Positions 10,555-44,753 of a stretch of DNA of 64,000 nt are shown one piece after another. This DNA is from Pyropia haitanensis. Taxonomy: Eukaryota; Rhodophyta; Bangiophyceae; Bangiales; Bangiaceae. The DNA lies in the NCBI GenBank assembly GCA_008729055.1, contig SDUX01000006.1, positions 3,708,842-3,772,841 on the forward strand, read 5' to 3'. Under the pieces are notes generated by a model that searched no databases, was not told the origin of the DNA, and saw only the letters and a program-made list of their open reading frames with translations. The stretch's first letter is position 1, and the number at the start of each line of letters is the position of its first letter. A program made the translations under genes and the position numbers.

Positions 10555-10556
10555 TT

Positions 10557-12871: not shown

Positions 12872-12873
12872 TT

Positions 12874-12890
12874 TGGTGGAGCAGCAGGGG
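12874..12890 (+). other. Element B primer-binding site
   Basis: TGGTGGAGCAGCAGGGG lies two bases after the LTR end. It matches the site of A except for one base. The tRNA is not identified. A leader of about 250 nt without an ORF of interest follows before gag. Confidence 0.75.
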
Positions 12891-13138
12891 ATACGCAGAA
12901 ACTCACGGCCCTCGGCCGTGAGGTGGACGTGTATCTCCTTATCTTTTACGGCTAAGACGGGTAGCGGTGTCATCGTGGACTTCGACTTGGGCGGCCGGAG
13001 CGCAGGGCGCAAACGGACCCGGGTCAAGGTGGTGGTGAGCGGGGCTCATCACGTCAAGGGGTCGCCACGGGCCGTAGCCCCGTGGACGACGACGATCGCC
13101 GGTCCTCGACAGGGGAGGACCTGATCGGCGAGGGTAAC

Positions 13139-14950: not shown

Positions 14951-14983
14951 GCGGTCGGTCGCGTGAGCCCGGCGCGGCCGACC
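14941..14983 (+). promoter_or_regulatory. -1 programmed ribosomal frameshift signal of element B
   Basis: The heptamer GGGAAAC (14941-14947) is in the correct register (G GGA AAC in the gag frame) directly before the gag stop TGA. After a 5-nt spacer comes a stem of 11 bp with one G-U: GGTCGGTCGCG (14953-14963) pairs with CGCGGCCGACC (14973-14983) around a 9-nt loop. Slipping back one base continues straight into the pol frame. This matches known -1 signals in slippery sequence, spacing and stem strength. The function itself is inferred. Confidence 0.9.
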
Positions 14984-17900
14984 TTCCCCCTGACCGCGGC
15001 AAACCCCAACCAACACCTCGGTGTTGGACGTCGATCCTCAACAAGGCGTACCGTCACTACACGGTTCCCCTGTGTCTGGGGCCTGCCCCAGAACACATGC
15101 GTGCGATGCGGCCCACGCTGGATACAGGGGCGGGTCTCAACCTCATTCGGGTTGACCAACTTCCGGCGAACTGGACCTCGTTCGCGTCCAAGAATCGACG
15201 GACGCCCAAGGTGGTTGACGCCAGTGGCAACCCCCTTCCCATCCTGGCGGCGATCAACATCATCGTCGACTCCGGGCACGTTAAGATGGTCTCAACGTTC
15301 CACGTCGTCAAGGAGTTGGCCGTCCCGGCCATCTTGGGTACCCGGTTCATCAACCAGCACGTGGAGGCTATCTACCCACGTCTCAACAAGGTGTACTGGA
15401 CCGACCCCAGTTCACCTGTCTCGGTTTGCATGCCCATCTTGGACACGCACTGCGTTCAACGGCAACAGGGCAAGGTCCGTCTGGCTAAGCGGACGACCTT
15501 GCCGCCGTTCACCGAAGTGTTCGCGGCAGCCAACAGCGACATCACCGGGTTGATCCATGTGACCACCAACTCAAGATTGCACCAAGGTCACCAAGTCATC
15601 TTGGCGAATGGGGTCGCCTGCACCTTGCCTGCCGTGCCCTTCCAGGTACGATTGTGCAACGTCGGCGCGACGACCAGGTACCTCAAGAAAGGTACCGTCC
15701 TCGGGTCAGCGGAGATGTACGAGGGGCCAGTCATCGCCACGGTCGATGAGAAGCCCCAACCTCCGCAAGATAAGCCCGCGCCGTCGGTCGACTCAGTCGA
15801 CCTCGCGGACGCTCCGAAGCACCTCCACAAGCGTATCCGGAGGATGCTCGAGCAGCATCAGGTCATGTGGAGCGGCAAGCTGGGGACGATCCACGCCACC
15901 GTTCATCGGATTGAAACCGATGACAAGGTCATCCCGATCCACCAGGCCCCCTACCGGACGGGCCTGCGCAAGAGGGAGATCATCACGGACTGCATCAACG
16001 CCATGCTCAAGCAGGAAGTGATACGGCCAAGCCACAGCGACTGGTCAAGCCCAGTCGTGGTCGTGCCCAAGAAGAACGGCAAGCCGAGGTTCTGCATCGA
16101 TTACCGACGGCTGAACGCCGTCACCAAGAAGGATACCTATCCCATTCCTAGGATGGATGATTGCCTCGACTCGTTGGGCGAGGCGCAGTTCTTCTCGACA
16201 CTTGATTGCACAGCCGGTTACTGGCAAGTGCCACTCCGAAAGGAGGACCAAGAGAAGACCGCCTTCGCATGTCACGACGGACTCTTCGAATGGGTCGTCA
16301 TGCCGTTCGGGCTGACGAATGCCCCGGCAACGTTCCAGCGAGCCCTGGACATCATCTTGTCTGGCCTCAAGTGGCAGATATGTCTTGTCTACCTTGACGA
16401 CGTCATCGTGTTCTCCAAGTCCGCCGAGGAACACGTCAGCCACCTGGACGTAGTCTTGACACGCCTACGTAAAGCAGGCGTCACACTCAACCTTGAGAAG
16501 TGTGCCTTCTTCAAGAAAGAAGTCGAGTACCTCGGTCACTTGGTCTGCCCCGGCCAACTCAAGGTGCACAACAAGAACACCGAGGCCCTCAAACGGGCCA
16601 CCTTCCCCAAGACGAAGACCCATATGAAGAGCTTCCTCGGCGCCTGCAACGTCTACCGACGCTTCGTCAAGGACTTCGCCAAGAGAGCGAGACCATTAAC
16701 CGAGCTGACCAAGAACGACGTCGGCCCGGATCTGCCTGAACCAACGGCAGAACAACTCGCGGCGTTTGAAGACCTCAAACAAGCCTTGGTGACACCGCCG
16801 GTGCTCACCATCCCGCACCCCACCCGTCGATTCGTGGTCGACGTCGACGCGTGCGCGGACCAGCTCGGGTGCGCCTTGTTGCAAGAACAAGAAGATGGAC
16901 AGCTGCAACCGGTGGGCTACTACAGCCGCACGCTGAAGCCGGCCGAGCAGAACTACTGCACGACGGAACGCGAATGCGTTGGACTTGTGTGGGGAGTGCT
17001 GACTTTACGGCACTTCTTGGACGGCAACAAGTTCACGGTGCGAACGGACCATCAGGCACTAAGGTGGATCTACAATACCACCGACCCAAGCAGCCGGTTG
17101 ATGCGATGGCGCCTCCGCTTGGCCGAGTTCACCTTCGACGTCTTGTACAAGCCTGGTGCAAGTCATCATGCACCCGACTTCTTGTCACGGACGCGCACCG
17201 GCGCGCTTGACGACTCGGATCTCGACGACGAGATCCCATGCTTGGCTCTGGCCGAGACGGCCAGAAGCTTGCAGAGGGGGCGGTACACCCACGCGGTACG
17301 GCTGACACCGGTCGCGTTTGAGGACCTAGTAGCGGACCAGGCGACCGACGCCTTGTGCAAGGTCATCCGCAAGAAGATAGCCGCAGGCAAGGCCCCCAAC
17401 TTCTCGGTGAAGGACGGCGCGCTCTACCGAGAGGGCCTCGACGGGGACCAGCTTGTGGTTCCGCACAAGCATCGGGCGAGGTTGCTCCACTTGGCACACT
17501 TCCCGACCACGGAGGGACATCCGGGATCAAACCGGATGTACTACTCCATGCGGCGCCGGTTCTACTGGCCGTCGATGGCCACCGACGCCTACGGAGTTGT
17601 CACGCGGTGCGCCGCATGCGCACAGAGCCGGCTTGCGTTGCGACGCCACACGGCGCCGATGAGGCTGTTCCCGGCGACCGAGCCGTTGACGGAAGTCAAC
17701 GTCGACATCCTCGGGCCGCTGCCTGTCTCGTTGACGCGCAACAAGTACGTGTTGGCATTCACCGACCGCTTCTCCAAGGTCGTCCGTTGCGTCGCCCTGA
17801 AGAAGGTGACCGCTGTCACGGTAGCCTCGGCGTTGGTGGAGGTATGGGTGGCCAGCTACGGGCCACCCGACGTGCTCCTGTCGGATCAAGGAAGCCAGTT

Positions 17901-19485
17901 CATGTCGAAGTTCTTCATCGCCGTGTGCCGGACCCTTGGCATTGAGACAAGGGAGTCGACGCCGTACCACCCGCAGACAAACGGGCAGGTGGAGCGGTAC
18001 AACCGCACCATCGTCAAGCAGCTCCGGCACTACGTTGCGGATAACCCGCAACGGTGGGATGAGCTCCTACCCATCCTCACGTACGCGTACAACACGCAGC
18101 CGCATCGATCGACGGGCGTGGCACCGTTCGAGCTGGTCATCCCCAGACGGATCCCGAACCTCACGGTGCACAGCCCGCCACCCGGTGTGTCTATCCAGGC
18201 ACACGGCACCACCAAGGACGGCTCGCCCTTGTCGGTCAAGCGCTCCTTCATGGCCCGGCTCCGCAAGACCATACCCAAGGTGGCCGAGGCTCTGCGCAAG
18301 ACGCAGCAGCGCTACAAGAAGACGTACGACAAGAACCTTGCCACCCGGAACAAGGATGTCAAGATCGGCGACTACGTGTACCTGAAGGCACACCAACGCG
18401 AGCACAAGTTGTCCAGCCCCACGAACGGGCCGTTCCTTGTCGTCGACCTGGACGACAAGACGTTCGTTGTCCAGGTGGGGGACGAGGAGAGCAGAGTGTC
18501 ATGGGACCAAGCGACGCCAGCCCCAAGACCCGATGCAGCCGGCGAAGCCGACGCCACTCCTCATGCCCTGCTCAAGGACAAGGTGAACCTGTCCGACCGT
18601 CCATCCGTGATGGACGACTACCTCATCGACAAGCTCGTCGGGTATCGATGCGTCGATGGGGAGCACCAAGCCAAGGTGCGGTGGTGGGGGTACCAGAGCA
18701 ACGACGACGTGTGGACGCCGCTCGGCGACCTGCCGAAGCACTTGGTCCTGCGGTACCTGCGGAACCAGAACAAGCAAGTGCCGGGGTACGAGTGGTCACC
18801 AACTAAGATGACACTCAGGTCGCAGAGCCAAGGCCTCCCACACCCGGACGCCCGCGTGAACGCGGTGACCCCCAGCGTCAGGTGGGTGCCAACCATCATC
18901 GCCTTCCACCAATCGCCCGACGGTCACGTCCAAGCGCGACTCATCTGGACCCACCCGCGCGGGCAGGTGGGCGAGGTCATCCCCCTGTACTACCTACGCA
19001 GTACATTCCCCACGAACTTCCCCCGTAACATACCGGAGCGGGCGGACTGGACGGCTCCCCGAGCAATCGTGGACCGGTTGGAGAAGCTCCACGGGCCTCA
19101 CACCATCGACTTGTTCGCCACTCGGGCGAACAAGAGGTTCGAGCGGTTCGGCTCCAAGGAGTGCGAGCCCGGGGCCGAGTGGCGTGACTCAATGTGTCAC
19201 GACTGGACGCCCCACAACGCGTGGGCGAACCCCCCGACCTCGCTCCTTCCGGAGATTGCCGAGCGACTGGCAAGTGGCCCTCTATTGGCCCTCACCCTCC
19301 TCGCCCCCCGGTGGGAGGCGCAAGAATGGTTCAGTATCTTCATGAACCGATGCTTCGAGTACGAGGAGTTACCCTTGGAGTGCTTCCCCCGCTCGCCCGC
19401 GAGTCCCGGCCTATGGGTGGCTGAGCACCCACCGGTCTGGACCACGATAGTATTTCGCTTTGAGCGAAATCATGCCGGCGAGTAG
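14941..19485 (+). CDS. pol: Element B Pol polyprotein: PR-RT-RNaseH-integrase-chromodomain-Dam-like
   Basis: Read by -1 frameshift from gag. Domains in order: aspartic protease (LDTGAG near 15118-15135); reverse transcriptase (FCIDYRRLNA near 16090, YLDD at 16390-16401); RNase H (VDVDACADQ near 16840; TDHQALRW near 17046); integrase with HHCC finger (17464-17635) and DDE core (VDIL near 17702, LSDQG near 17880, GQVERYN near 17984); chromodomain (about 18607-18795, VRWWGY). A further domain of about 200 residues (18800-19485) has TIDLFAT (19101-19121) and NPP (19228-19236). It resembles phage-type Dam adenine methyltransferases and the methyltransferase-like module of DIRS elements. The frame is uninterrupted. 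The extra C-terminal domain is unusual for Ty3/gypsy. Confidence 0.93.
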   Translation, partial: GKLSGRSREPGAADLPPDRGKPQPTPRCWTSILNKAYRHYTVPLCLGPAPEHMRAMRPTLDTGAGLNLIRVDQLPANWTSFASKNRRTPKVVDASGNPLPILAAINIIVDSGHVKMVSTFHVVKELAVPAILGTRFINQHVEAIYPRLNKVYWTDPSSPVSVCMPILDTHCVQRQQGKVRLAKRTTLPPFTEVFAAANSDITGLIHVTTNSRLHQGHQVILANGVACTLPAVPFQVRLCNVGATTRYLKKGTVLGSAEMYEGPVIATVDEKPQPPQDKPAPSVDSVDLADAPKHLHKRIRRMLEQHQVMWSGKLGTIHATVHRIETDDKVIPIHQAPYRTGLRKREIITDCINAMLKQEVIRPSHSDWSSPVVVVPKKNGKPRFCIDYRRLNAVTKKDTYPIPRMDDCLDSLGEAQFFSTLDCTAGYWQVPLRKEDQEKTAFACHDGLFEWVVMPFGLTNAPATFQRALDIILSGLKWQICLVYLDDVIVFSKSAEEHVSHLDVVLTRLRKAGVTLNLEKCAFFKKEVEYLGHLVCPGQLKVHNKNTEALKRATFPKTKTHMKSFLGACNVYRRFVKDFAKRARPLTELTKNDVGPDLPEPTAEQLAAFEDLKQALVTPPVLTIPHPTRRFVVDVDACADQLGCALLQEQEDGQLQPVGYYSRTLKPAEQNYCTTERECVGLVWGVLTLRHFLDGNKFTVRTDHQALRWIYNTTDPSSRLMRWRLRLAEFTFDVLYKPGASHHAPDFLSRTRTGALDDSDLDDEIPCLALAETARSLQRGRYTHAVRLTPVAFEDLVADQATDALCKVIRKKIAAGKAPNFSVKDGALYREGLDGDQLVVPHKHRARLLHLAHFPTTEGHPGSNRMYYSMRRRFYWPSMATDAYGVVTRCAACAQSRLALRRHTAPMRLFPATEPLTEVNVDILGPLPVSLTRNKYVLAFTDRFSKVVRCVALKKVTAVTVASALVEVWVASYGPPDVLLSDQGSQFMSKFFIAVCRTLGIETRESTPYHPQTNGQVERYNRTIVKQLRHYVADNPQRWDELLPILTYAYNTQPHRSTGVAPFELVIPRRIPNLTVHSPPPGVSIQAHGTTKDGSPLSVKRSFMARLRKTIPKVAEALRKTQQRYKKTYDKNLATRNKDVKIGDYVYLKAHQREHKLSSPTNGPFLVVDLDDKTFVVQVGDEESRVSWDQATPAPRPDAAGEADATPHALLKDKVNLSDRPSVMDDYLIDKLVGYRCVDGEHQAKVRWWGYQSNDDVWTPLGDLPKHLVLRYLRNQNKQVPGYEWSPTKMTLRSQSQGLPHPDARVNAVTPSVRWVPTIIAFHQSPDGHVQARLIWTHPRGQVGEVIPLYYLRSTFPTNFPRNIPERADWTAPRAIVDRLEKLHGPHTIDLFATRANKRFERFGSKECEPGAEWRDSMCHDWTPHNAWANPPTSLLPEIAERLASGPLLALTLLAPRWEAQEWFSIFMNRCFEYEELPLECFPRSPASPGLWVAEHPPVWTTIVFRFERNHAGE

Positions 19486-19591: not shown

Positions 19592-20530
19592 TCACTCACC
19601 CCCCTCACCCCAGATGTCAGCCACGTTGAAGCGGCCCGATGACCCCTCGCCGGGGTCATTCATCACCTCATCCAAGGCGGTGCGGAACCGGTCGTACAAC
19701 AACGACCGCGACGCCGCGTCCAGCGCGGCGTCTGCCAGGGACCGCGACGCCACCTCGAAGGTGGCGCCATCCAGCCGGTCCACCTCCAAGCGTAGTGCCT
19801 GCTGCATCACGCGTACCGTCTCGCACCAGGCACGGTTGATCAGACGCGCCGGGAGGTGCATGCGCTTCAACTCGCGCAGGTCCTCCGAGCGGAAGAGTCG
19901 GCGGAACGCCGACTCGTCCGCCGGCGACGCGACCAACGGCACCTTCCCGGGGCCGGCCCTGTACCCCTCCGGGGTACACGACCGATACCGGGACCCCGTG
20001 GGAGAGAGCGACCGCGAGGCGTGGCGAGACCCGCGCTCGCGCCGACGCCGGGACGCCGAGCGCGACGACGACGGCGACGAATGCCGCCGTCGGTGAGTCG
20101 ACCGCGTCTCCGCCGTCGACTCCGACCCGTCCTGCTGTCGGCCGGGACGGCGAGAATGACGACGGCGGCGTGAAGAACGCCCCCGCGCACGGCTCGGGGT
20201 CGCCGGTGAAGGCGACCGCTCACGTCGACCGCGGCATGCGCTAGCCGTGTCCTCAGAAGGGCTGTGCCGGCGGCGCGGACGGGATCGGCGGCTCTCGGAA
20301 GCGCCCGGGCCCGAGGCGTTGCCGCGGCGACCCCTCTTCCCGCGGACGGGGCTGCCAAAGTCCCCCGCCCCAGCAGCGTCCCCAGCCGGAGGACGCTCTC
20401 CCGGCCCCCCTGCCGTGCCCGATGGGGGAGGCCGGCCCCGACCCGACGTGTGTGGCGCCCGGCCGCCACCCCGTCCGCCCCGACCGCGTCCGCGGCTACG
20501 CGCGGACCCTTCGTGCCGGGAAGACCCCGG
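19592..20530 (-). CDS. Element B antisense ORF, C-terminal part (RS-rich protein)
   Basis: This is the 3' portion of a long minus-strand ORF split by element C. Deleting C and one CCCGG copy restores the same frame. It runs tail-to-tail toward pol, whose stop is about 100 bp away. It encodes a Gly/Arg-rich stretch, then an Arg/Ser-rich stretch (about 19960-20300; RRRRHSRR, SPSSSRSASRRRRERGS) like the RS domains of RNA-binding proteins. It ends in a helical segment (LRLEVDRLDGATFEVASRSL, then FRTALDE and FNVADIWG) that has a counterpart in element A at 35526-35894. The function is unknown. It is clearly part of the element, as it lies between pol and the 3' LTR. Confidence 0.75.
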   Translation of the reverse strand, partial: PGSSRHEGSARSRGRGRGGRGGGRAPHTSGRGRPPPSGTAGGPGERPPAGDAAGAGDFGSPVRGKRGRRGNASGPGASESRRSRPRRRHSPSEDTASACRGRRERSPSPATPSRARGRSSRRRRHSRRPGRQQDGSESTAETRSTHRRRHSSPSSSRSASRRRRERGSRHASRSLSPTGSRYRSCTPEGYRAGPGKVPLVASPADESAFRRLFRSEDLRELKRMHLPARLINRAWCETVRVMQQALRLEVDRLDGATFEVASRSLADAALDAASRSLLYDRFRTALDEVMNDPGEGSSGRFNVADIWGEGGE

Positions 20531-21393
20531 TGTGAGGCACCACCCACACACGGGCAGCCCTCAACGTACTGGTGCCGGTGTCAGCAACCCGTGCACCAAT
20601 GAGGATGCCGGGCGCGGGGAAGGTGACGGGTGGGATGACGGTGATGGGGGTGGGGAAGAGGATGGGCGTGACGTCGGTGAGGGTCGAGGGGGTCGAAGGT
20701 GAAGGAGGTCTTTGTGTCTCTGTCTGTGGTTATTCCCCCCGAGGTCTCTCCCGGTGGCGCCCACACTCACGCATTATATACCCCCAGGGGGACACCCAGG
20801 GTGCCCCAAAGCATGCAATTGCCCGTCGTGCCGGTGGACGGCACCAAAGCTCTCAAAACAAAGCATGGGCTCTCAGAACAAAGCAAGGGTGGGCGTGTGC
20901 GCCCCAAGGCGCCCCACCAGAAAGCCCCAAACGGGGGGGAGACGGTGTGCGGCGCTCGTAGCGCCGCGCGGCTGGCCCCACGCGCCATTCGACCCGAAAA
21001 GCCTCAGAGGCGTGTAAGCAGACGCCAGTCTTCGGGTCGAATATCTCCCGTGGGTCAGCAAGTCTTGTCGCTCCCATTGGTCCACGGGGAGATTGTTCCG
21101 GCTTGCTGACGCGTCAGAGATGTGGCTCGTCTTTTGGTCCGTTTAGTCCGTTGATCCGTTGGAGACTGTACCCGTCGGCAGATGAGTCAGGGTAGTGTCG
21201 GTTAGCCAATCCGCGGCTCCCGTGCTGACCGTCCGTTAGTAGTAGATTATCGGACGGACACCGCGGCATGCCCCAGATTACTTTGGAGTTGATGCGTCTT
21301 GGAAGGAGTTGGCTGAGAAGGACAGGGAAGGAGAGGCCCCAGTCCTTATCCCCTAGGCTCCAGTCTTGGGGATTTAAGGGGCATATCCTTACA
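20531..21393 (-). repeat. Element C 3' LTR (left copy)
   Basis: On the minus strand it starts TGTAAGGATATG and ends GGTGCCTCACA. It is an 863-bp copy of 27039-27898. It contains the minus-strand TATA-like TATATAATGCG near 20772-20780. Confidence 0.96.
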
Positions 21394-21406
21394 CCTCCCC
21401 CCCCTT
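21394..21406 (-). other. Element C polypurine tract
   Basis: On the minus strand AAGGGGGGGGAGG lies directly before the 3' LTR, the expected plus-strand primer of reverse transcription. It overlaps the pol stop codon (TAA at 21405-21407). Confidence 0.9.
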
Positions 21407-24400
21407 AGGACGCGCGGCGCAGGAAAGCGTCCAACACCTCAGGTGCGTTCGCAAGGTCTTGCTTGGTCAGCCAGGAGTTCTCGCTGACGTCACAGCCTTT
21501 CCACTTGACCAGGTACTGTAGTCGTCCACGGCGCTTTCGTGACCTTATGATGGAGTCGACTTCGTACTCGACAGAACCGTCCGGAAATGCCACCGGAGGC
21601 GGAACGGGAGGAAGTCGGCCATAAGGAACAGCGCGGTACGGCTTCAGCAAGCTCGCATGAAAGGCGTTGTGAACCTTGCGATCGAGCACCGCTTGGGGAA
21701 GATCCAGGCGGAACGTCACATCGTTGATACTCTCAGTGACGCGGTACGGTCCTGAGTACTTGGGCATCAGCTTGCGAGCGCCTTGGAAAGCATCTGGCAT
21801 AAGGTGTTTGGTACTTAGTAGCACCAGATCGTCCACGGCGATCTTGCAAGGTCGGCGATGGCGATTTGCGTACGCCGAGCGCGCCTCATTTGCACTCTTG
21901 ATGGCTGAGATGGCAGTCTCTTGAGCATGTTGGAGACCGCTTAGCCAGTCAGACACTGCAGGCATGCTTGACTCTGAGTTTTCGAGGATGTCCATTGGTA
22001 CCGTCTTAGGTTCGAATCCGTAGTTCAGGAAGAAAGGGGAGTACGTTGTAACAGCATTTGGCGACCGGTTGTAGGCTACTTCGGCAGCAACCAGAAAGAG
22101 GTCCCAATCGCCTTGGTGATGGTTGACAAAGTTTCGCAGGATTTCTTCGATCTTCTTGTTCATGATCTCAGTTTGTCCGTCGGTTTGCGGGTGGTACGCT
22201 GAAGAGGCCTTGATCTTGACCTTGAGAATCTCCGTGAGCGACTGCCAGAAGTTGGAGAAGAAAATGCGGTCCCTGTCGCAGACAACATCAGCTGGGAGTC
22301 CGTGGTGTCGATAGACGTGATCATGGTAGAGCTGAGCTGCGACTGGCGCCGTACAGTCTGGCTTCATAGGGGCGAGGCGAATCATCTTGGAGAGGCGGTC
22401 GACAACGACGTAAATCCCGTTGTGGCCTCTTGGAGTTAGAGGAAGAGGCGTGATAAAGTCCATGGAGACACTTGCCCATCGTTGGCTCGGGGGGTCCAAG
22501 GGTTTGAGGTGACCCAGAGGTGAATGGGTGCTAGCCTTGTTCCGCTGGCACAAATCACATGTTTGTACGTATCTATGGATGTCTTTCCGCATTGTCTTCC
22601 AGTAGTACTTGGAAGAGATAACCTTGGTTGTTTTCTTGACTCCCATGTGCCCTTGGCACGGGACATCATGGTAGTCGTGGAGTAGTCTTTGGCGTAGAGC
22701 ACCGACGGGGATACACGTACGGTCACCTCGTTTCAACAACCTCATGTGTAGCCGGTAGGGAGATACCGGGTCTTTGACTAGGTCGGCAAACTCGGGGTCC
22801 GCGTCGTACTCTTGTCTTAAGGTGGCAAGGTCTTGATCACTTTGGTTGATGGTCATGAGGTTGTTGATTTCAGTTTTCTTGGGGAGTTCTTCAATGGTCT
22901 TGGTCAGCACGCGACTAAGAAGGTCTTGATTGGGGGCGTGCTTGTCGGGAGCATCTTGTGGCTGCCTGGAAAGGGCATCAGCCACGGGGTTCGAAGTGCC
23001 CTTGATTGGGACAATCTTGAACTGGAACTGGTCCAGGAACTCCAGCCACTTGACTTGGCGATCGTTCAGCTTCTCTTGGGTGCTTAGGTATCTCAGGGAC
23101 TCATGGTCGGTGTGGACCTCAAAGGGTCTTCCGTAGAGGTAGCAGCGCCAATGCCGGATAGCTTGTACGACTGCAAGCAGTTCTCTTTCACGAATGCTGT
23201 AGCGCTGCTCGTGGATGTTGAGGGTTAACGAGAAGTACGCCACTGGACGCCGTCCGCGTCCATCATCTTGCTCAAGGACTGCGCCCACAGCATACCCGCT
23301 GGCATCTGTAGACACGTAGATTGGGTATCTCTTGTCGAAAGGCCTTAGCACCGGTGCGCTTGTCGTTAGGTCCTGCAGCTGCTCAAAGGCTTTCTGGGCG
23401 TCGGGTGTCCACTCGAAGTCGACATTCCCAGTCAGCCTCGTTAGCGGCGTAGCTACGGCAGCCATTCCCTTGATGAATCTTCGATAGAAGTTGACCATAC
23501 CGAGGAAAGATTGTACATCCTTTTTGCTCCTCGGTGTTGCCCACGTACGGATGGCTTGGACCTTGTAGTCTTCCATAGAGAAGCCTTTCTCGGAGATGAC
23601 GTGGCCAAGGTAGTCCACAGTAGTTCGAGCGAACTGGCACTTGCTCAGCTTGGCGTAGAGCTTGTGTTCTCGTAATTTCTCGAGTGCTAATCGTAGGTGC
23701 TTGAGGTGATCGTCGTAAGTTTCGCTGTAGACTAGGATGTCGTCGAGGTAGACACAGATGAAGTCGTACAGATAGGGTCGGAAGACATCGTTCATTAGGT
23801 TCATGAAGACCGCGGGTGCATTTGTCAGACCAAAGGGTACGACGGTGAACTCATAGAATCCGTACTTGGTTCGAAACGCCGTCAAAGGTATTGTTTCTGG
23901 GTCAAGGCGAATCTGGTGATAGCCAGAGCGGAGGTCGATCTTTGTAAAGTACTTGGCCTTTCGCAGTTGGTCAAAGATGTCGTCGATGCGTGGTAGTGGG
24001 TACGCGTTCTTGATAGTAGCCTTGTTCAGGGCCCTGTAGTCGATGCACATTCGCCAGCCACCGTCCTTCTTCGCCGCAAAGAGGACGGAAGAGCCCCACG
24101 GTGAGGTGCTTGGTTGGATGAATCCCTTCCTTATGAGGCCGGCCAGTTGAGTCTTGAGTTCTTCGAGCTCCCATTCGGCTAGTCGGTAAATTCCGCTACG
24201 ACGCGGTTGGGCGTCATCGGTCAGCTTGATGCTGAATTTGTGACTGCGCTCAGGAGGGAGTCCGTCGGGGAGCTCGTCTGGGAAGACGTCAGCGTACTCT
24301 TTGAGAATCTCTTGAACTTCTTTCTTGTCTTCGCCTTGTCCCATCGTAATGGCGTTAATGTCGAAGGTGCTAGAGGGATCTTCCGACTGCAGGTAGATGG

Positions 24401-24941
24401 CAAAAACAGGGCACCTTTGAACGAGGTCCCGAGCAAGGCGTTGCCGACTGATCAGAGCTTCGGGCTTCTTGAGGGAGGCAGTGATAGAAATGTTCTTGTG
24501 GTTGAACTTGAAGGAGATCTTGTTTTTCTTGTTGTTGATTTTGGCGTCCTTGTCATCGCGCCACTTCTTTCCCAGGATGAGGTCGTACGCGCTCATTTCA
24601 CAAACAGCAAACCGAAGTCGCTCTTGGTACGGTCCGATGTGAATCTCAAGAGGGTCAACGGTTTCAGCGAGGACATGGGAGCGGCCATCGGGCATGCTTG
24701 CCGCGAAGTCCGTTCCTTTCGTTTTCACATGCAAGGAGGTAACGAGGCGCCTTGAGACGACGTTGATGGGAGATCCGTCGTCGAACAGCACCTTAACAGC
24801 TTTTCCATTGACAGAAGCAGTAGAAAGCAGAAGCCCGAGTCGCGGGCCTTCAAATGGTGACGACATATTTTCAGGAACCGAAGGAGCGTCTTTCACAGAT
24901 GTTAAGGATTGTTGCTGCTTCAGTTCCGCTGGCCTTTTGGG
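21405..24941 (-). CDS. pol: Element C Pol polyprotein with C-terminal chromodomain
   Basis: Read by -1 shift from gag; the pol frame is open from the heptamer. The protease carries DDGS (24771-24785) where DSGA or DTGA is usual, with hydrophobic flanks intact. Reverse transcriptase has FICVYLDD (YLDD at 23739-23750). RNase H has [13 protein letters not shown] and TDHESLRYL. Integrase has the HHCC finger ([14 protein letters not shown] between the His and Cys pairs), catalytic [13 protein letters not shown] and GQTEIMN, and a GPY module (SGPYRV). The protein ends in a chromodomain ([16 protein letters not shown], about 21420-21570). Such chromodomains are thought to guide integration to marked chromatin. 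No stops are seen. Confidence 0.93.
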
Positions 24942-25798
24942 CAGTCCTTAGCCATGTGTCCTTTCTCGCGACAGCGAAGGCAGAGACCCTCGCGCATGCA
25001 GCGCTGGCGTTCGTCTGGCGTCAGCTTTTCGATCTTGATGCTGGAAATGTCCATCGGGACAACGCCCATCGTCGGTGGCTTGCCAGAAGTGCTGTTAACA
25101 TTGCTGGTGATACGGGACACTCCAGCCTTGGCCGCTTCCACGCGCAGGGCGTCCGTCATCAGTGATTCAAGATCGGTGTACGTCTTGAGGCACAGTGCCT
25201 GCCAGATGTCGCGCTTCAGGCCTCGGCTATAGCGGTCGATCTTTTCCGCTTCGGTGATGTCCGGGATGTCCAAGAGGACGCTCAGGAAAGTCCTGTTGAA
25301 CGTCCCGACGTCCTTGATTTGGCGCCATGAGTGCAGCTTGTCCCGCGCCGCCTGCGTTTTGTTCAGAGGGCTGAAGCGACGGATGAGCGCAGCCCGAAAG
25401 GTAGCCCAGTCGGGGACCGCCGTCGTCCGACTGTAGGTATGCCACCAGGTGAACTCTTCACCGTCCAGGTAGGTGCAGGCGATCCGACACGCTTCGTCAG
25501 GGTCAGTCAGTCGCACATATGAGTCCATGTGCGAGCACCATGCTTCAATTGTCCCGGGCTTGCCAGAGAACAGCGCGGGCTTATTCGGCCTCGCAGTCGT
25601 CGCGCCTCCACTCGAGGCCTTAGCCTTGGCGTCGGACAGCTGTTTCTTGGCGTCCGCCAATTCAACCTTATGAGCCTCGAGCTCGGCGCTCATCTGCGAG
25701 ACGAACGCTGTAAGTTGATTCCATGACTCCGCGGAGGGTGCGGTTGACGCCGTTCCCGGATTAATCGGGCTTACAGTCGCAGGATTCGGGGGGTCCAT
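24920..25798 (-). CDS. gag: Element C Gag protein
   Basis: This is a 292-codon ORF from the ATG at 25796-25798. The frame is open further upstream, but the protein-like sequence starts here (MDPPNPATV). A coiled coil ([20 protein letters not shown]) precedes the capsid-like region, typical of chromovirus Gag ([33 protein letters not shown]). A zinc knuckle [14 protein letters not shown] lies near the end. The pol frame begins within the last codons. Confidence 0.93.
24935..24941 (-). promoter_or_regulatory. Putative -1 frameshift heptamer of element C
   Basis: On the minus strand CCCAAAA sits in register (C CCA AAA) in the zinc-knuckle codons, five codons before the gag stop. A -1 slip at this site leads directly into the pol frame, and an upstream stop in that frame (TAA a few codons earlier) means the shift must occur about here. 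I see no strong stem just downstream, so the signal is less complete than in B or D. Confidence 0.65.
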
Positions 25799-26162
25799 TG
25801 CGTCCTGGGTGAGGTCCGCAACAATCAAATTAACCCAACAGATCCGGTTTGACTTACTCCGGCAGAGCACGGGGCAAGTCTTATAAGATGTGCAAGTTAA
25901 TTTGACCAAGCAAAATAGTGCTGCACTAGCTCTGGACAAGCGTGGCCGTCGTGGCTACCACGTTTCCAAAGATGGACAACACTATTTGATAAGTCACAAG
26001 CGATGCGATGAAGCAGAATTCGAAGACTCAAATCACGCAATCGGATTTTCCCGCCGGCCGCCGCGCACGGGCCCGAGTCGGGTCGTGCCGGATTTCCACG
26101 CGGGGGGATCAAAGGGGGAAAATCGCGTCTCTTGCACAGATCCTGGGGGGTGTTGCGAGGTG

Positions 26163-26801
26163 TCAGTCGGTGCGGCGCGCCAGCGTGCGGTGGTGATCCT
26201 TGCCACGCTGGTGGCGTTCGAAGTGCTCGACCGTCTCAAATTCGCGATCGCACACGTCGCAACGAGGGCGGGTCGCTGGACGGTTGACCGTATTGCGGTG
26301 GCGCCGCGACCAGCGATGGTCGCGCAGCACTGTCAGGCTGTTGCAACGCACACCGCACGGCTTGCAAACGTATTTGCCCTTGGGGATGGTCTTGGCGATC
26401 CGGCGCTGCTCTCGCTGCTCTGCTGCGCGCGCGGTCGTCGGTCGGATGTGGCCGATTCGTGGGGCCGGCGGCGCGATGTAGCGCCGGGCCGGATCCTGCG
26501 CGGGCAGCAGCAGGCGCCGGTTGGCTGGGACCGCCGGTCCTGACGTGGCCGGGCCCTTACCCTTGCGCGAGAGGGGGGGCTTGGATGCGGCTGGCGCCGC
26601 CGATGCGGCCGTCGCCGCCACAGAGGATGACGTGGATGCGCCCGCCGGGGTGCCACGTGCCGCCGCGGTGTCGCGCGCCGCCGCGGTGCCGCGCGCCGCC
26701 GGGGTGCCGCGCGCCGTCGGGGGGCGCGCCGTCGCCGCCGAGGAAGTCGGGGCGTCCGCCAACGCCGAGGAAGAAAATTCCGAACCTGATTTGGCACTCA
26801 C
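26163..26801 (-). CDS. Accessory ORF of element C: double C2H2 zinc-finger protein
   Basis: This is a 212-codon ORF between the 5' LTR and gag, same strand. The N-terminal half is Ala/Ser/Thr/Pro-rich with short degenerate repeats (ARGTPA-like). The C-terminal 70 residues hold two C2H2 fingers with identical spacing C-x2-C-x12-H-x5-H: C146, C149, H162, H168 and C181, C184, H197, H203. The H-x5-H spacing is that of the U1/matrin/JAZ class, which often binds double-stranded RNA. A basic tail follows. Such an ORF upstream of gag is not a standard Ty3/gypsy component. It could bind element RNA or DNA. A captured host exon is the alternative. Confidence 0.8.
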   Translation of the reverse strand: MSAKSGSEFSSSALADAPTSSAATARPPTARGTPAARGTAAARDTAAARGTPAGASTSSSVAATAASAAPAASKPPLSRKGKGPATSGPAVPANRRLLLPAQDPARRYIAPPAPRIGHIRPTTARAAEQREQRRIAKTIPKGKYVCKPCGVRCNSLTVLRDHRWSRRHRNTVNRPATRPRCDVCDREFETVEHFERHQRGKDHHRTLARRTD

Positions 26802-27020
26802 TGGGTTTCGACAATCAGTCGACCAAAAGAAAAAAAACCGTGACAGGGGCCACCAGGGCAGTGTCAGGGCAGTGTTCTTTCGGTGTGATTCGTGGAACCC
26901 GCTGCGTTCGTATTACAATGCCCGAGGCACGCCGAACACAGGGGGCAGCACGAGTGCACAAACACAGGGAGGGCCAAATCCAGGACGGAATCGCAACGTC
27001 ACCGCCAAGAGGAAGTCAAA

Positions 27021-27036
27021 CTATCTGAAGCTACCA
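27021..27036 (-). other. Element C primer-binding site
   Basis: On the minus strand TGGTAGCTTCAGATAG begins two bases after the 5' LTR end, starting with TGG as expected for pairing with a tRNA CCA end. It differs from the site used by A, B and D. The tRNA is not identified. Confidence 0.7.
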
Positions 27037-27038
27037 CA

Positions 27039-27898
27039 TGTGAGGCACCACCCACACACGGGCAGCCCTCAACGTACTGGCGCCGGTGTCAGCAACCCGT
27101 GCACCAATGAGGATGCCGGGCGCGGGGAAGGTGACGGGTGGGATGACGGTGATGGGGGTGGGGAAGAGGATGGGCGTGACGTCGGTGAGGGTCGAGGGGG
27201 TCGAAGGTAAAGGAGGTCTTTGTGTCTCTGTCTGTTGTTCTCCCCCGAGGTCTCTCCCGGTGGCGCCCACACTCACGCATTATATACCCCCAGGGGGGCA
27301 CCCAGGGTGCCCCAAAGCATGCAATTGCCCGTCGTGCCGGTGGACGGCACCAAAGCTCTCAAAACAAAGCATGGGCTCTCAGAACAAAGCAAGGGTGGGC
27401 GTGTGCGCCCCAAGGCGCCCCACCAGAAAGCCCCAAACGGGGGGGGGACGGTGTGCGGCGCTCGTAGCGCCGCGCGGCTGGCCCCACGCGCCATTCGACC
27501 CGAAAAGCCTCAGAGGCGTGTAAGCAGACGCCAGTCTTCGGGTCGAATATCTCCCGTGGGTCAGCAAGTCTTGTCGCTCCCATTGGTCCACGGGGAGATT
27601 GTTCCGGCTTGCTGACGCGTCAGAGATGTGGCTCGTCTTTTGGTCCGTTAGTCCGTTGATCCGTTGGAGACTGTACCCGTCGGCAGATGAGTCAGGGTAG
27701 TGTCGGTTAGCCAATCCGCGGCTCCCGTGCTGACCGTCCGTTAGTAGTAGATTATCGGACGGACACCGCGGCATGCCCCAGATTACTTTGGAGTTGATGC
27801 GTCTTGGAAGGAGTTGGCTGAGAAGGACAGGGAAGGAGAGGCCCCAGTCCTTATCCCCTAGGCTCCAGTCTTGGGGATTTAAGGGGCATATCCTTACA
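27039..27898 (-). repeat. Element C 5' LTR (right copy)
   Basis: An 860-bp copy of 20531-21393. On the minus strand GGGGTATATAATGCG (TATA at 27279-27286) is the likely promoter of the genomic RNA. The LTR is followed on the minus strand by the primer site. Confidence 0.96.
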
Positions 27899-29924
27899 CC
27901 CGGGGCGTCTTCGTCCCCGCTTGTGGCCCAACGACGTTGTGCCTCCGCCGCCGCCTCTTGCTGCGCCGCGAACGCCGTAGCGCGCTCGCGGGCCGCGCGG
28001 GCAGCCTCGGAGGCGTGCTCCGCTGCCGCTGCCTCGGCCGCCTTCTCGGCGGCCGTTGCCGCAGCAGCCGCCTGAGCCGCCGCAGCATGCGCCGCCGCAT
28101 CGTCGTCTTGTCGACGACGATCCGCGTCCGCCGCCGGGACGCCCGCGGCCCCTGACGGTGACGCGGCGGTAGGCCCGCCCGCCCTCGGCCCGGACGAGGG
28201 GCCCGCCGCCCCCCCGGCCCCGATGGGCTCCCCAAGCGGATCCTCCCGACGGGGGGAAGGGGGCACGGAAGCCGGCCGCCCACCGAAGCGGCCCGCGTTA
28301 AGCCGGTCGGCGTCCCGCCGACCTGCGGCGGCGTCGCGAGAGGGACCCGCGGACGACCCACGCTGGGCGCGTGCGCGGGCCGCTGCCTGCGCTGCGCGGT
28401 TGGCAGCGCGAGCGCGCTGCCGCCCCTCTTCCCGCTCCTCCTGCTCCGCCGCCCTTGCCGCCTCCAACCGCTCCTCCGCCCGCATCGCGCTCTCGCGCAA
28501 CGCCTCTTGGCGCCGCCCACGGGAGATGCTCAAGGAGTGCGCGAACCTCGTCGTCGGCGCCCGCGCCGACGTCGGGCCACCCGTTGTCTTCGCACCCGCC
28601 GAAGGGGGGGCGTCGCCGCCATCCACGTCGATGGGCGCCTCCGCGCCCCCTGACGCGTTGAGGTCCGGGCGACGTAGGGGACCGTCGCCCTCCAACTCGT
28701 CGGCCTTGGGGAAGCCCGTTAGGCATTCCAGGGCCGCGAACCCGTACTCCTGGTCCGGCGTGTACTGGACCAGCACCTCCCGGGCGGCGTCCCCCACTCC
28801 CCCAACGTCCACCCACGCGGTGACGTGCGACCAGGGGAACGCCAAGGCCCCCGTGACGCACCGACTGAAGGCCAAGGCGGACCCAGGGGCGACCTCTCTT
28901 GGAGATCGTCCAACGGCAACCGGGAGAAGTGCTCAAGCAGGGTGCGCTTCAAGCGCACCAGCACTCCCCGCTCCCGGAGGGCTTGGAACCAGACGGCGGC
29001 GTAGTCGAGCACCATCTCCGTGGACACTATGGTCCACGCGACGTGGCTTGCGTCCTCAAGGTAGGAGTACACGTACTCCGCCAACAAGGGCATGGCCGGA
29101 GGGGAGCTCAAGCCCGCGTCCACGAACAACTCGGGCAGGGGCACGAGTTCCTCAGCCGCCGCGGGTCGGGTGGCATCTAACCACTCAGCCCACAAGGGGC
29201 AGAGGAACCCGCAGGCCGTCGCCACCACTTGGCGACGGCTGACGATGCTGGACGGACGGCGGCGGCCGGCTAGGTAGCCCCCGCCGCGCACCGACATGTC
29301 CATGTCGACCGGGCAGCTCTCCGAGTACGACACCGTGGCGTGGTGTCGTAGGAGGGCACTCAACCCGACGAGGGCGGCCCGCGTAGCGGATGTCGGGGTG
29401 TACATCATGTCCAACCCCTCGTAGAGATCCCCCTCTACGAAGCGGGCCCGAGGCCACTCCCGCCGCAGGCGGTCGAACGCCAGCGCGGCCGCGTGCACCG
29501 GGGAGGAGTGCCGCCGCTCGTAGTGCTTGCACGCTACGAAGAAGAGGTTGCGCACCCACGGCTGCAGCCCCTCCTCGCGCGTCTCTTGACGGAGCACCTC
29601 GTTGGCAAACGCCAACGCCATGAAGGTGACCGCCTGCACGCCCGGCTGCCCCGTGGACGGAATGCCGTGCACGTCATGTAGGCGCACGCTGTCGTACGTG
29701 GCGACGTGACCCGAGGTCGTCACGTCGACGAACCGGTCCGGGAGCGCCCACCCGGCCTCGGCCACACGGCGGAGGCACGCACGATGATGCTCGCGGGCGA
29801 CGCGCAGCAGCTCCGCGTTGATGAACGCCGGCGACATGAACCCCGGTCGGGGCACCCACTCCGACAAGGGGCGGAAGACGATCTCCCCCGCCATGCCGCT
29901 GCGCCACCGGTGCGGTACCGGCAT
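27899..29924 (-). CDS. Element B antisense ORF, N-terminal part
   Basis: ATG at 29922-29924; an in-frame alternative is MAGEIVF at 29894. The ORF starts 68 bp from the 3' LTR and runs against gag-pol. About 340 residues of mixed helical, non-repetitive protein come first (AFINAELLRVAREHHRACLR, YVYSYLEDASHVAWTIV). Near 28890-28905 the protein-like reading changes frame by one base. It resumes as AWVDVGGVGDAARE and QEYGFAALECL, then an Ala/Arg/Glu-rich helical stretch to 27899, where C is inserted. Element A encodes a homologue (45275-46410). No transmembrane segment or known domain is recognised. The frame change may be a mutation, an assembly error or a real frameshift. Confidence 0.72.
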
Positions 29925-29992: not shown

Positions 29993-30634
29993 TGTGGCAT
30001 ATATACGCCTGGGGGGCGCGCAGGGGCCGTCCACGGCTAAGTGGACGGCACGCGCCGCAGCCCCACGGGCGGCCACACCCGCCGAGGGCGTCGTTGCGAC
30101 CCCTCTCCCCGACCCCTGTAAAAGGGTCGGGCGGCGCACCGGGCCCGAACGGTCGCGTCACGGGTGGGGCTAGCCCCCCCCCTAGGTCGCTTGTGATTGG
30201 GTCGAAGGCGTGCGCCGGCGGGCGATCCTTCGACCCGAAGGACAGCTCCCGGGCCGGGGGAGGACGGCCGCGGGAGCTGGATCGAGTACTCCCTGTGACG
30301 ATCGATAGGATCGACCTATCGATTGTGGTACGCCCTTTCGGGGGGTACTCACCAATTTCGCATGCATTTATCGTCTTGGAGGGATTTCGCTTCTATTTCT
30401 TAGGACAGGTCGACCCTGCCCGGTCGACCTGTCCGATCGAGGGTTGTGGCGGGCGCGCGCGTGCCTCTTCTGGGCACGCGACGGCGTTCTCGCCCCGCTC
30501 CTCCCTGCTCGTCAGGTCTAAACGTATCCTTCTTCGTCCCGCTTACTTGCCATAGTCTTGGCACTGCGGTTACGGGTTTGTGCGTCAAACCTCCCCCCTG
30601 ATTACGGTACCCTGTGGACACCCGACTTGCCACA
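29993..30634 (+). repeat. Element B 3' LTR
   Basis: Copy of 12229-12871, with one substitution (CAATTATC versus CATTTATC) and one fewer C in a run. The preceding polypurine stretch is short (GGGGGG just before TATGTGG). The hairpin ladder is preserved; for example the 13-bp arms lie at 30403-30434. Confidence 0.95.
29998..30007 (-). promoter_or_regulatory. TATA-like motif upstream of the B antisense ORF
   Basis: On the minus strand CGTATATATG lies at the outer edge of the 3' LTR, about 75 nt before the antisense start codon. That spacing would give a start site 25-30 nt downstream and a short leader. The motif is suggestive only, as it is also simply the first bases of the LTR. Confidence 0.45.
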
Positions 30635-31002: not shown

Positions 31003-34000
31003 TGAGTCGGGCGCCAACGGGCAAGACGCCCGACATCATGCCCTTGTCCCCGACGAAACCGTCCAAGGGACGCATCACTCACATCCTTAGTAAGGATCAC
31101 CAGCATTACACGATTGCTGCATGCGTGGGACCAAGTCTCAACGCTACAAGAAGTATGAGACCGACGCTCGACACCAAAGCCGGTATCAACCTTATCCGAA
31201 CGGATATGTTGCCCAACGATTGGCATAGATTTTCGGAACCACTTGATCGGAGCCCCCGCATCGTCGACGCGAATGGTCAGCGGATGAAGATCCCGTACGC
31301 CATTTATCTCTACGTGAACACAGGCGGCGTACAAGCCTTTGCGCGCTTTTTAGTCTCTAGCAACTTGGCGGTGCCGGGCATTCTTGGCACCAAGTTCATT
31401 AATTAACATGTGGAAGAGATCCACCCACGAGAGAAGCGCATCGTTTGGCGCAAGAGCAACTCGAATGAGGAGCTCTGCTCATCGCCGATCTTGTCAATCA
31501 ACGTTTAGGACGAGAATGTCCCACAGTGGACGGAGCAGGCCTCCAAGGTAACGTCGTGCAAACGTATTTCTATCCCAGCCAAATCCGAGGCCTGGGTCAT
31601 GGCCAACTGCTCGACCCCTGGGTTCGTAACCCTGACGCCCAACTTCTCGTCAAGGTGTGCAACTTTGGCCCCACCAAGAAGGTCCTTAGGAAAGGTACCA
31701 TACTTGCCTCTGCTGAGGCATATGAGGGCCCGATCCTCGTGGCCGATATTGCAATCTACAACCTTGATAATGACGACATGGCATTATCCTCGCTCAAGGA
31801 CATCGACCTTAGCGCTACACCCGCGCACCTCCACGTCCAAGTCCGTGAAGTGCTGTCGAAGCACGCAAAGATGTGGGACGGGACACTCGGTGTCATCCGT
31901 GCTACGGAGCACGCCGTACACGTGCCGGAGGGGGCGGCACCTATGCGGGCCTAACCCTACCGAAGAGGGCCGTTCAAACGGCAGATCATTGCCGACCAAG
32001 TCAACAAAAAGCTACGGATGAAGGTCATACGACCAAGTCATAGCCATTGGGCAAGCCCTGTTGTCATTGTCCCCAAAAAAAACGGCAAGGCACGCTTTTG
32101 CGTTGACTACCGGCGACTCAACGCCATCACCGAGAAAGATTCTTACCCTATTCCAAGAATGGACGACTGCCTTGACTCTTTGGGTGATGCCACCTACTTC
32201 ACGTCCTTGGACTGCACTGCCGGTTACTGGCAGGTTCCCTTACGGGAATCTGACAAGGAGAACTCGGTGTTCACGTGCCACTACGGAACGTTTGACTACA
32301 ATACCATGCTTTTTGGCCTGACCACCGCGCCCGCCACGTTCCAACGCGCACTGGATATTATCTTGTCTGGGCTCAAGTGGCAGGTCTGCCTTGTCTACTT
32401 CAACGATGTCATAATCTTATCTGCCTCGGCAGAACAACACATCAAGCATGTGGACAAGATCCTCACGCGGATGCGTCAATCCGGCGAGACCCTCACCCTT
32501 TAGAAATGCACGTGGTTTGCCCGCGAGGTCGAGTACCTCGGTCACATGGTGACACCGGGGCAACTGCACGTGCATAACGAGAACACGGAGGCACTGCGCA
32601 ATGCAGCGTTCCCCACTACCAAGACGCAGCTAAAAAGCTTCCTTGGCATGTGCAATGTATACCGACGCTTTGTAAAGGACTTCACCAAGAAGGCCAGACC
32701 ACTTAACGACTTGACCAAGAAAGAGGTCCCTGCACAGCTTCCTAAGCCTACCGATGAAGCCATCGCGTCCTTCGACGACCTACATAACGTCTTGTTCACA
32801 CCGCCAGTATTGGCGTTGCCAAAGCACGGGCACAAGTTTGTCGTCGATGTCGACGCGTGTGCAGACCAACGTGGTTGCACGCTGCTCTAGGAGGACACGA
32901 ACAAGGAGCTCCACCCAATCGGGTGTTGGAGTCATTCGCTGACCCCAGCCGTACAGAACTACGGCTTGACAGACAGAGAATGTCTGGGAGTGGTATGGAG
33001 CGTCCTCAAGCTCCGCTACTTCCTTGAAGGACAGCGCTTCCTGGTACGCACCGACCACCAGAGCTTAAGCTGAATCTACAGCTCATCGGACCAGAGTGGC
33101 CGCTTGATGCGATGGCGCGTACGGCTATCCGAGTTTACGTTTAACGTGCAATACAAGCCGGGTGCTTCGCATCACGCACCCGACTTTCTGTCTCGAGCAG
33201 ACAACACCGCCGGCACTGAGCCCATCGACGACGATATCCCTTGTCTTGCGTTGGCCGAGACGGCCGACAGTCTAGTGGAGGGGAGGTACACGGGCCCGGA
33301 CGCTTCCAAGCCCGTGGAGTACAACGACATCATCGAGGCCCAGCAGTCAGACGACTTTTGCCGCTCCATCTCCGAGCGTATTGCCAAGAAGTTGCCAACA
33401 AGCTTCTTTGTGCACCCCTCGGCTGGACTTCTTCGCAAGTCGCCCTACGGCGAACAGCTGGTCGTCCCGATTGCCTTGCGAAAGCGCATCCTAGCGCTGG
33501 AACACCAGAGTCCCCTTGCGGGACACCCCGGTACAAACCGGATGTACTACGCCATGCGGCGAAAGTACTACTGGCCGTCTATGATCACAGACATTCACGG
33601 CACGGTTACAATGAGCCCCGGCTCTGCCCAGAACAGCCTGGCACGGAGACGTCATGCGACGCCCCTGACGCTGTTTCCGGCAACTGAGCCGTCGACGCAG
33701 CTGTCGGTCGACATCCTTGGCCCCCTGATACAGTCTAAGGCGGGAAACAAGTTCGTCCTTGTTATCACAGACCGCTTTTCAAAGCTGACCAAGTGCGTTG
33801 CCCTGTGCAAGATTACAGCCATCGGCGTCGTTTCCCCCATCCTCGAGGCATGGGCCGCTTGCTATGGTCCTCCGGACACTATCTTGTCGGACCAAGGACC
33901 CCAGTTCATGTCCAAGTTCTTCATCGCGGTTGTGAAGATGCTCGGCACTGAGACAGTGCGTACCACGGCCTACCACCCACGGACCAACGGTCAATTAGAG

Positions 34001-35377
34001 CGATACAACCGCACTATTGCTACGCAGTTGCGCCACTATGTGGCCGACGACCCCGCGCACTGGGACGAGTTATTACCCGTGCTCACCATGGCTTACAACT
34101 CCCAGCCCCACCGGTCGACGGGCATCGCTCTTTTTGAGCTGGTTATCCCCCGCAGGATTCCCAACCTGCAGGTCAAGAACCTCCCCCCGGGCACATCCGT
34201 CAAGCACGGTGGCCTTAAAGACGGTTCAGCCCTGTCCCGCAAGCGTGAGTTCATGGCTCACTTACGCAAGCGTATACCCGACGTGGTGAAAGCTCTGCGT
34301 AAGACGCAGCAACGCTATAAGCGCAACTTCGACGCAGGGGTCTCCCCGCGCAACGCTAGACTCCGCGTTGGTGACTATGTCTACACAAAACAATACACGC
34401 GAGAGCGTAAGCTGCGAATCAGAGCAGTCGGCCCCTTCGTTATACTGGACGGTGACGACTCTACTTACTTCATAGACGTCGATGGGGAGGAGGTGCGCGT
34501 GAATAGTGACCATGTCACGCCCGCCCCTCGCCCTGCAGGTGCGGACAATACACCGCCCCCATTACTGGACAAGCTAGACAACCCCCGAACTCAACCGGAG
34601 GATGAGGACGAGTATTTCGTTGAAAAAATCGTCGGTATTCGCAAAGAGGATGGCGAATACCAAGCCAACGTCAGGTAGTTGGACTACGACCGCAGAAATG
34701 ACACCTGGGAGGCGCTCAGTCAACTCCCACGAAACGTGGTCATGCGCCACCGTCGGCGTATCAAGAAGGTCATACCTGGGTACGACTGGCGCCCCCAGGG
34801 GGCGCGACAGTCACCAAGACTCCGGCCTGCGAGCCCCAACGGGGATTCGGTGATGCTTGTTGCAACGCCTGACACGTGGCAGCCACGTGTCTCCGACATA
34901 CACGTGGATATTCACGGTCGGATTGTGGCTTGCGTGGTCTGGCAATCTGAGCACTTGGAGAAGTCGGAACACGTGCCACATTATTACATGCGCCTTAACA
35001 CCCGTTACGGGCCCCATACGGTGGTATGGCCTCCCACGACGAAGTCAAAAGACACAAAACGGGAGGAGCTACAGCCCGACGAGGCCGACCCCATTGACGA
35101 TCACACCTGGTCCACAGGGAGCCTCTGGCTTGCGCCCCCACCGTCAGCGGTTTTCCAGGTCGTTGACCTGACCATCGGTCACCAAGCCGCCGCCACCGTC
35201 GTCCTCCCCCTTTGGGAACACGCGCAGCGGTACGGCCGGGCGTTGAGCCGCTCGTTCGAGTACGAGGTTTTACCAAGTGCCTCCCTCGGGCTCCGTACAG
35301 ACCCCTCACCCGCGTGGGCCATGGTAGCGTTCCGTTTTGAACGCACCTTCCCAGGTAAGTGGCGCGCCACAGTCTAA
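30987..35377 (+). pseudogene. pol: Element A pol, decayed
   Basis: Co-linear with B pol: protease-like region (TLDTKAGINLI), RT, RNase H, integrase, chromodomain and the C-terminal domain. In-frame stops lie at 31404, 31506, 31952, 32501, 32888, 33071 and 34676, with a frameshift between 31508 and 31526. Several stops are explained by C-to-T or G-to-A changes against the B codon (CAA, CAG or TGG). The RT catalytic motif has become YFND (YLDD in B). The final domain keeps GPHT and the FEYEVLP block, but DLFA is lost and NPP reads APPP, so it could not be catalytic. Dead. Confidence 0.92.
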
Positions 35378-37129: not shown

Positions 37130-37131
37130 GT

Positions 37132-37149
37132 TGGTGGATCAGCGGGGGA
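37132..37149 (+). other. Element D primer-binding site
   Basis: TGGTGGATCAGCGGGGG follows the LTR after two bases. It is related to, but not identical with, the A and B sites, suggesting the same or a sister primer tRNA. Confidence 0.7.
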
Positions 37150-44740: not shown

Positions 44741-44753
44741 GAGGAGGGGGAAA
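44741..44753 (+). other. Element D polypurine tract
   Basis: GAGGAGGGGGAAA lies directly before the 3' LTR, the expected plus-strand primer. Confidence 0.9.

Follow-up and report, generated by a model that had tools for sequence, protein, structure and literature searches.

Within a 64,000-nucleotide stretch of the genome of the red alga Pyropia haitanensis (contig SDUX01000006.1; hereafter the window), a Ty3/gypsy element that we call B carries a long open reading frame (ORF) antisense to gag-pol. From the pattern of substitution among its copies we conclude that this ORF is a real gene, maintained by natural selection. In its architecture it is an antisense accessory gene of a known kind, encoding a protein unrelated, by the tests made, to those already described, and it belongs to a clade of red-algal elements bearing a chromodomain. 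On balance we favour the view that this Ty3/gypsy clade carries, antisense at the 3' end, an accessory gene for what is probably a nuclear, trans-acting regulator that binds nucleic acid.

The antisense gene and its copies

The gene is read on the minus strand from an ATG at 29924 (MPVPHRW...) to a stop codon at 19592, and so lies between the end of pol (19485) and the 3' long terminal repeat (LTR; 29993-30634). The original prediction, made from the letters of the window, described a minus-strand ORF of nearly 1,000 codons split by a further element, C; its coordinates were right, and it is other copies that show the undivided frame, with 987 or 988 codons open. The window copy itself is disrupted at two points: C is inserted in it, and near 28.88 kb its length is changed by a net one base, so that its N-terminal (P0003) and middle (P0002) parts stand in different frames. 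Its two segments are:

19592-20530, minus strand: C-terminal part, with the Arg/Ser-rich region and the C-domain; it shares 99.4% identity with the intact protein P0005 over residues 675-986
27901-29924, minus strand: N-domain and linker, from the ATG at 29924 and including the one-base length change

The P. haitanensis genome (52.9 Mb) was searched with the N-terminal 403 amino acids (aa) as query. The 60 matches, all counts here being lower bounds, resolve by position into 25 B-type loci and four diverged loci of 28-29% identity (window element A, C7:3789257, C8:4555890 and C1:375772). The prediction had staked its case on further copies that keep the frame, and these are present at 13 of the 25 B-type loci (13/20 among the loci L009-L028). 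An apparent deletion derivative at C8:1843589 (L042) was rejected; the stretch runs into N's.

Purifying selection is specific to the antisense frame

We calculated the ratio of nonsynonymous to synonymous rates (dN/dS, NG86) against the intact copy L009 for ten copies, those that diverge most among the remaining 24 of B-type. In the antisense frame the ratio was below 1 in all ten, at 0.22-0.29 in nine and at 0.62 in L016; values near 1 among copies would have refuted the prediction. Stop codons interrupt the aligned frame in two of the ten, L033 (four) and L023 (one).

Long frames are frequent on both strands of the GC-rich window, and an ORF of this size might be a product of chance or the mirror of a sense gene. 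Frame-specific dN/dS and substitution simulations reject this explanation, to which we assign almost no weight. In the other two antisense frames and in two sense-strand registers the ratio was at least 0.99. It was 0.31-0.63 in the directly opposite register, as a mirror of the antisense frame predicts, yet that register has 12-23 stop-containing codons, and a low ratio together with zero stops was found in the antisense frame alone, in eight of the ten copies. When the same substitutions were placed at random, nonsynonymous codons were never as few as observed (0/2000 simulations in 7/7 copies). The absence of stops is by itself weaker evidence, as 15 to 821 of 2000 simulations were stop-free in the six copies without stops.

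The constraint is uneven along the protein. Across six copies, dN/dS was 0.19-0.29 in the N-domain and 0.34-0.53 in the linker. The Arg/Ser region is under the tightest constraint in five of the six, at 0.11-0.17, and reaches 0.30 in L033; the C-domain, measurable in four copies, gave 0.20-0.48 from few changes. Compared with window B, the pol of three elements gave 0.21-0.29, with stops in 2-5 codons, and the gag of one element gave 0.29; the L025 element has no value for either, since no match fell within its compared stretch. The A-type gene introduced below gave 0.31 (window A against L030) and 0.24 (L031 against L030). The constraint on the antisense gene is thus close to that on gag and pol.

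Because the purifying selection is frame-specific and similarity at the protein level extends across diverged families, a protein is needed, and selection of this kind shows that it matters to its element lineage. The same two observations bear on a function in the antisense RNA rather than the protein, exerted through dsRNA or siRNA control of gag-pol. Antisense non-coding RNAs occur in other elements (PMC7264820), and a transcript starting at the LTR edge would extend in the direction of pol, whose end it could overlap; RNA and protein roles could also coexist. Selection on the coding frame and protein similarity between families nevertheless argue against the RNA as the functional product, and we consider this explanation distinctly improbable.

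Antisense homologues in other element families

Element A, in which B is inserted, carries a homologue at the corresponding place, as had been proposed. It is split by a fourth element, D, and the proposed coordinates are here corrected to 46423-45275 plus 36652-35526. The homologue carries in-frame stops; its parts are:

45275-46423, minus strand: N-domain part of the A antisense gene, with an in-frame stop
35526-36608, minus strand: Arg/Ser-rich and C-domain part, the C-domain in another frame, as in L030

Aligned with each other, the A and B proteins scored 56.6 bits, far above the maximum of 29.3 bits in 1000 shuffles, controls of the kind that had been called for. Among the blocks said to be common to both, DVHG, AAxxFxRLRRxWP and YGF are real and were found again in additional homologues. 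Both A-type copies (window 35526-36608 and L030:4701-5420) have a stop between the Arg/Ser region and the C-domain, which lie in different frames; this shift could reflect an intron, a frameshift or decay that both copies share.

A genome search with the reverse transcriptase (RT) returned 289 candidates, of which 97 were scored. Among these, the nearest diverged relatives of B by full-length matches are window A, L030 and L029, at 65-70% identity, and all three carry the antisense gene, which stands opposite pol in three element families (A-, B- and L029-type). The D-type copy in the window (RT 56%) showed no antisense homologue. None was found in L045 and L046 either, 4.5-kb stretches near another 56% family with a 1435-aa pol frame, which may not span the interval from the end of pol to the 3' LTR. 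A family at 60% RT identity (C26, C107, C38 and C49) lies outside this survey of carriers.

A captured host gene, or a relic of another transposon, with a role unrelated to retrotransposition would be in keeping with the lack of detected homology to gag, pol or known accessory proteins, and with the spread of a subfamily, B', that has no intact copy (see below). Its distribution points elsewhere: among the matches we noticed none that clearly stood outside an element, neighbouring pol having been checked at some loci only; the elements with the gene that were read in detail (B, window A, L030 and L029) are closely related in RT; and the gene is kept opposite pol in all three types, under constraint near that of pol. 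We hold such a capture to be fairly unlikely.

Comparison with known antisense genes

Antisense genes of LTR elements are known in flowering plants and one fungus, with their function unsettled (PMC7264820). The plant Ty3/gypsy examples, termed aORF-3R (antisense to gag-pol, between pol and the 3' LTR), include the Retand ORF with TRP28 (PF04195), Grande gene23 and RIRE2. They occur in most copies and are about as conserved as other element proteins, and for the Grande gene a promoter of its own and a nuclear protein are reported (PMC7264820 and PMC11963269). The position that defines the class was found for B and L030; in L029 the gene is in opposite orientation to pol, and the LTR was not located. 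Presence in most copies and conservation like that of element proteins were likewise found, with six B' loci as the exception.

The proposed comparison with Tat-type plant antisense ORFs therefore holds for the architecture, an antisense ORF placed between pol and the 3' LTR (PMC7264820, PMC11963269), whereas the Pyropia protein is distinct and no homology was detected. Transposase_28 (TRP28, PF04195) had no match in 10/10 homologues at E<=1, and a genome search with PF04195 gave no match but detected none of its 14 controls either. Retand is described as a non-chromovirus (PMC11963269), whereas the elements here carry a chromodomain. Boty of Botrytis, a fungus, is a further example by description, a non-plant LTR element with an antisense aORF (PMC7264820). 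The comparison with HBZ of the retrovirus HTLV-1 survives for 3'-LTR position and orientation and for nothing beyond. Both are antisense genes reading away from the 3' LTR, but HBZ is a bZIP protein whose gene has a spliced form, and no bZIP match was found in the window B pieces or in ten homologues. In the open-licence literature, surveyed by title or start of abstract, we found no description of this gene or of antisense ORFs in red-algal retrotransposons. The occurrence of an apparently unrelated protein in a distant lineage suggests that elements gained antisense genes more than once, in the same place.

The encoded protein

The protein is roughly 600-990 aa long. Its helical N-domain, some 400 aa in length, is followed by an Ala/Arg linker that evolves fast. 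Next comes a basic stretch rich in Arg and Ser, which B-type proteins have in a long and compact types in a short form, and last a C-domain of some 110 aa. Protein searches covered about 5.8 billion sequences, with only the best 8000 or so candidates scored each time, and gave 3, 3 and 13 matches among those scored. The named homologues are P0006 (978 aa) and P0007 (767 aa) from Pyropia yezoensis, and P0010 (619 aa, 74 member sequences) and P0013 from P. vietnamensis; additional matches came from jgi, lgn and eukprot sources. P0007 keeps the N- and C-domains and is missing most of the Arg/Ser region. The motifs DVHG and AAxxFxRLRRxWP are conserved in the N-domain across homologues, which bears out that half of the two-domain description; for the other half, alignment of B-type with compact-type C-domains by hhalign (P = 2.5e-4, probability 43%) makes homology likely rather than certain.

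The label 'RS-rich' is mainly a statement of composition: where Arg and Ser are densest in P0005, a stretch of 150 residues is 28% R and 21% S. RS and SR dipeptides number 33 in P0005, inside the range of whole-protein shuffles (mean 25.9, maximum 40), and 20 in the A-type P0009 (mean 10.8, maximum 23). No RRM match was found in the window B pieces or the ten homologues, and the protein falls outside the definition of SR/RS splicing proteins.

The original prediction did not recognise this protein, and Pfam, NCBIfam, PDB-sequence and fold searches placed it in no family either. The best Pfam match among ten homologues reached only E 0.026, NCBIfam had no model for P0005, P0009 or P0010 at E 0.1, PDB sequences contained no match, and no relative was found in the viral contigs and prokaryote genomes searched. 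The B N-domain, folded alone from 18 sequences (mean pLDDT 77.7, pTM 0.77), is predicted to be mostly helical. Foldseek of this model against the PDB returned no match with E below 3.3, and a VIA-align check covered 85 chains only; the N-domain is best described as a predicted fold without a detected relative, and not as a proven new fold.

A loss of the gene in a recently spread subfamily

Six loci (C99, C8:1058k, C9:4420k, C1:75k, C6:1770k and C7:3868k), 98-100% identical to L044, share a gutted gene and are called B'. In the B' copies read (L043 and L044) the N-domain is lost beyond about 15 codons and the entire C-domain is gone; between these two remnants there are one synonymous and seven nonsynonymous changes. 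The remaining middle is 81% identical to B, compared with 98.9-99.8% at the end of pol and 96-97% in the LTR, and an 81% middle within a 99% element suggests recombination with an older subfamily. At three of the six loci (C99, C8 and C7), where RT matches were paired by position, there is a 1664-aa pol frame whose matched part is free of stops. The C99 insertion is young, since a 252-base LTR stretch at its opposite end is 100% identical.

B' has therefore spread recently without an intact gene, so that the gene is either dispensable or its product acts in trans. Given this spread despite the loss, the gene is not needed in cis. The LTR of B' (L044:2300-2560) holds an additional diverged copy of its own edge, of roughly 90 bases. 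A loss of the antisense TATA in B', hinted at by alignment, was rejected; the sequence reads as an internal LTR duplication, with TATATA and ATG kept at the edge.

A candidate promoter and the proposed function

A possible start for an antisense transcript lies at the 5' edge of the B 3' LTR:

30000-30005, minus strand: TATATA at the LTR edge, candidate antisense promoter, 81 nt upstream of the antisense ATG

The motif GCGTATATATGCC is kept at the LTR edge in 22 of the 22 B-type copies printed (of 25), and the distance from the start of the TATA to the ATG is 81 nt in 20 of them and one base off, nearer or further, in L020 and L035. Copies L024, L022 and L019 show 0/68 differences upstream of the ATG. 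The most diverged copy, L033, which lies outside the 22, differs at 4/68 positions before the ATG, 17/120 in the proximal LTR, 48/238 in the distal LTR and 56/299 at the start of the ORF. The B gene is probably transcribed from this TATA promoter.

In the mechanism we propose, an antisense transcript would begin at the TATA, and its protein would enter the nucleus, bind nucleic acid through the basic Arg/Ser-rich region and regulate element RNA or chromatin in trans. Nucleic-acid binding or nuclear location is suggested by that region, on which constraint is tightest in five of six copies. By analogy with Grande gene23, whose product is reported to be nuclear, and with HBZ, which is nuclear and trans-acting (PMC7264820 and PMC10186651), our best guess is a nuclear regulator that acts in trans. 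A more specific version is tentative: a regulator of new fold, acting in trans and driven from the 3' LTR, may have marked one Bangiales Ty3/gypsy clade since before its species split, with B' spreading on protein supplied by B.

The same basic region would also suit a factor with an antisilencing or chromatin role in protecting or targeting the element, comparable in this to the anti-silencing proteins of other plant transposons. A chromodomain in the same elements and, in B, a Dam-like tail on pol would accord with such a factor, and a trans-acting protein would account for the spread of B'. No domain match to a chromatin factor was obtained, however, and we judge this more particular role quite unlikely.

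Several observations weigh against a nuclear regulator expressed from the LTR edge. L016 departs from the other copies in its dN/dS, RS repeats beyond composition are unsupported in B, and no fold or family relative names a function in the Pfam, NCBIfam, PDB-sequence or fold searches. As to the promoter, the edge of L033 reads GCGTACATATGCC, with TACATA replacing TATATA. Retrotransposition requires both the polypurine tract, which lies within the 69-base upstream segment, and the LTR end next to it, so that conservation of this segment is not specific to a promoter; nor does it track the presence of the gene, because gene-less B', which retains TATATA and ATG, likewise has only 4/68 differences. 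In A-type copies the gene begins about 1 kb into the element and the LTR edge shows no TATATA, so that their gene, if expressed, must be expressed by other means. Finally, a gene that the element can do without would explain the spread of B' as readily as one whose product acts in trans. The genome offers natural controls, in 13 open loci, in six that spread recently with no intact gene and in a D family without a detected homologue, which make the role of the antisense gene for its element directly testable.

The nested elements of the window

The window is built around two nested Ty3/gypsy elements, B inserted in A, with C inside B and D inside A. The remaining features are:

10161-10554, plus strand: 5' LTR of element A, 98.2% identical to 47451-47844
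12229-12871, plus strand: 5' LTR of element B, starting TGTGGC and ending GCCACA, with 5-bp target duplication CCGCC
12965-14950, plus strand: gag frame of B, Retrotrans_gag-like, with a CCHC zinc knuckle
14491-19485, plus strand: pol frame of B, 1664 aa, with RT, RNase H, integrase, a weak chromodomain and a Dam-like tail
20531-27900, minus strand: element C, Ty3/gypsy with chromodomain, within the B antisense gene, with target duplication CCCGG
29993-30634, plus strand: 3' LTR of element B
33074-34678, plus strand: integrase part of A pol
36609-45274, plus strand: element D, Ty3/gypsy with chromodomain, within the A antisense gene
47451-47844, plus strand: 3' LTR of element A, paired with 10161-10554

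The B LTRs are 99.7% identical, with one mismatch and one gap in 643 positions. In B gag, zf-CCHC scored above its cut-off and Retrotrans_gag reached 21.6 against 24.1 bits. Five-base target duplications are readable for all four elements (A AAGGA, B CCGCC, C CCCGG, D CCGCC), and B (12224-12228) and D (36604-36608), both inserted in A, used the same target, CCGCC. The C-terminal tail of B pol (18898-19482, plus strand), taken alone, scored 29.7 against 28.1 bits, above the cut-off of PF05869 (Dam N6-adenine methyltransferase), and TIGR01712 matched it at E=6.7e-6, below the model cut-off; the pol pieces of L029 and L030 that were scanned had a chromodomain match and no Dam match. The primer-binding sites inside the 5' LTRs of A (10555-10590) and B (12872-12895) are nearly alike, reading TTTGGTGGAGC[AG]GCAGGGGATAC, and their complement contains CCA, as expected of a tRNA 3' end. 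Upstream of A, a tandem array at 3533-9202 has a 1074-base unit. Over the 300 bases compared, five copies do not differ at all and the sixth matches at 86%; a 179-aa minus-strand frame is present in each of five units.

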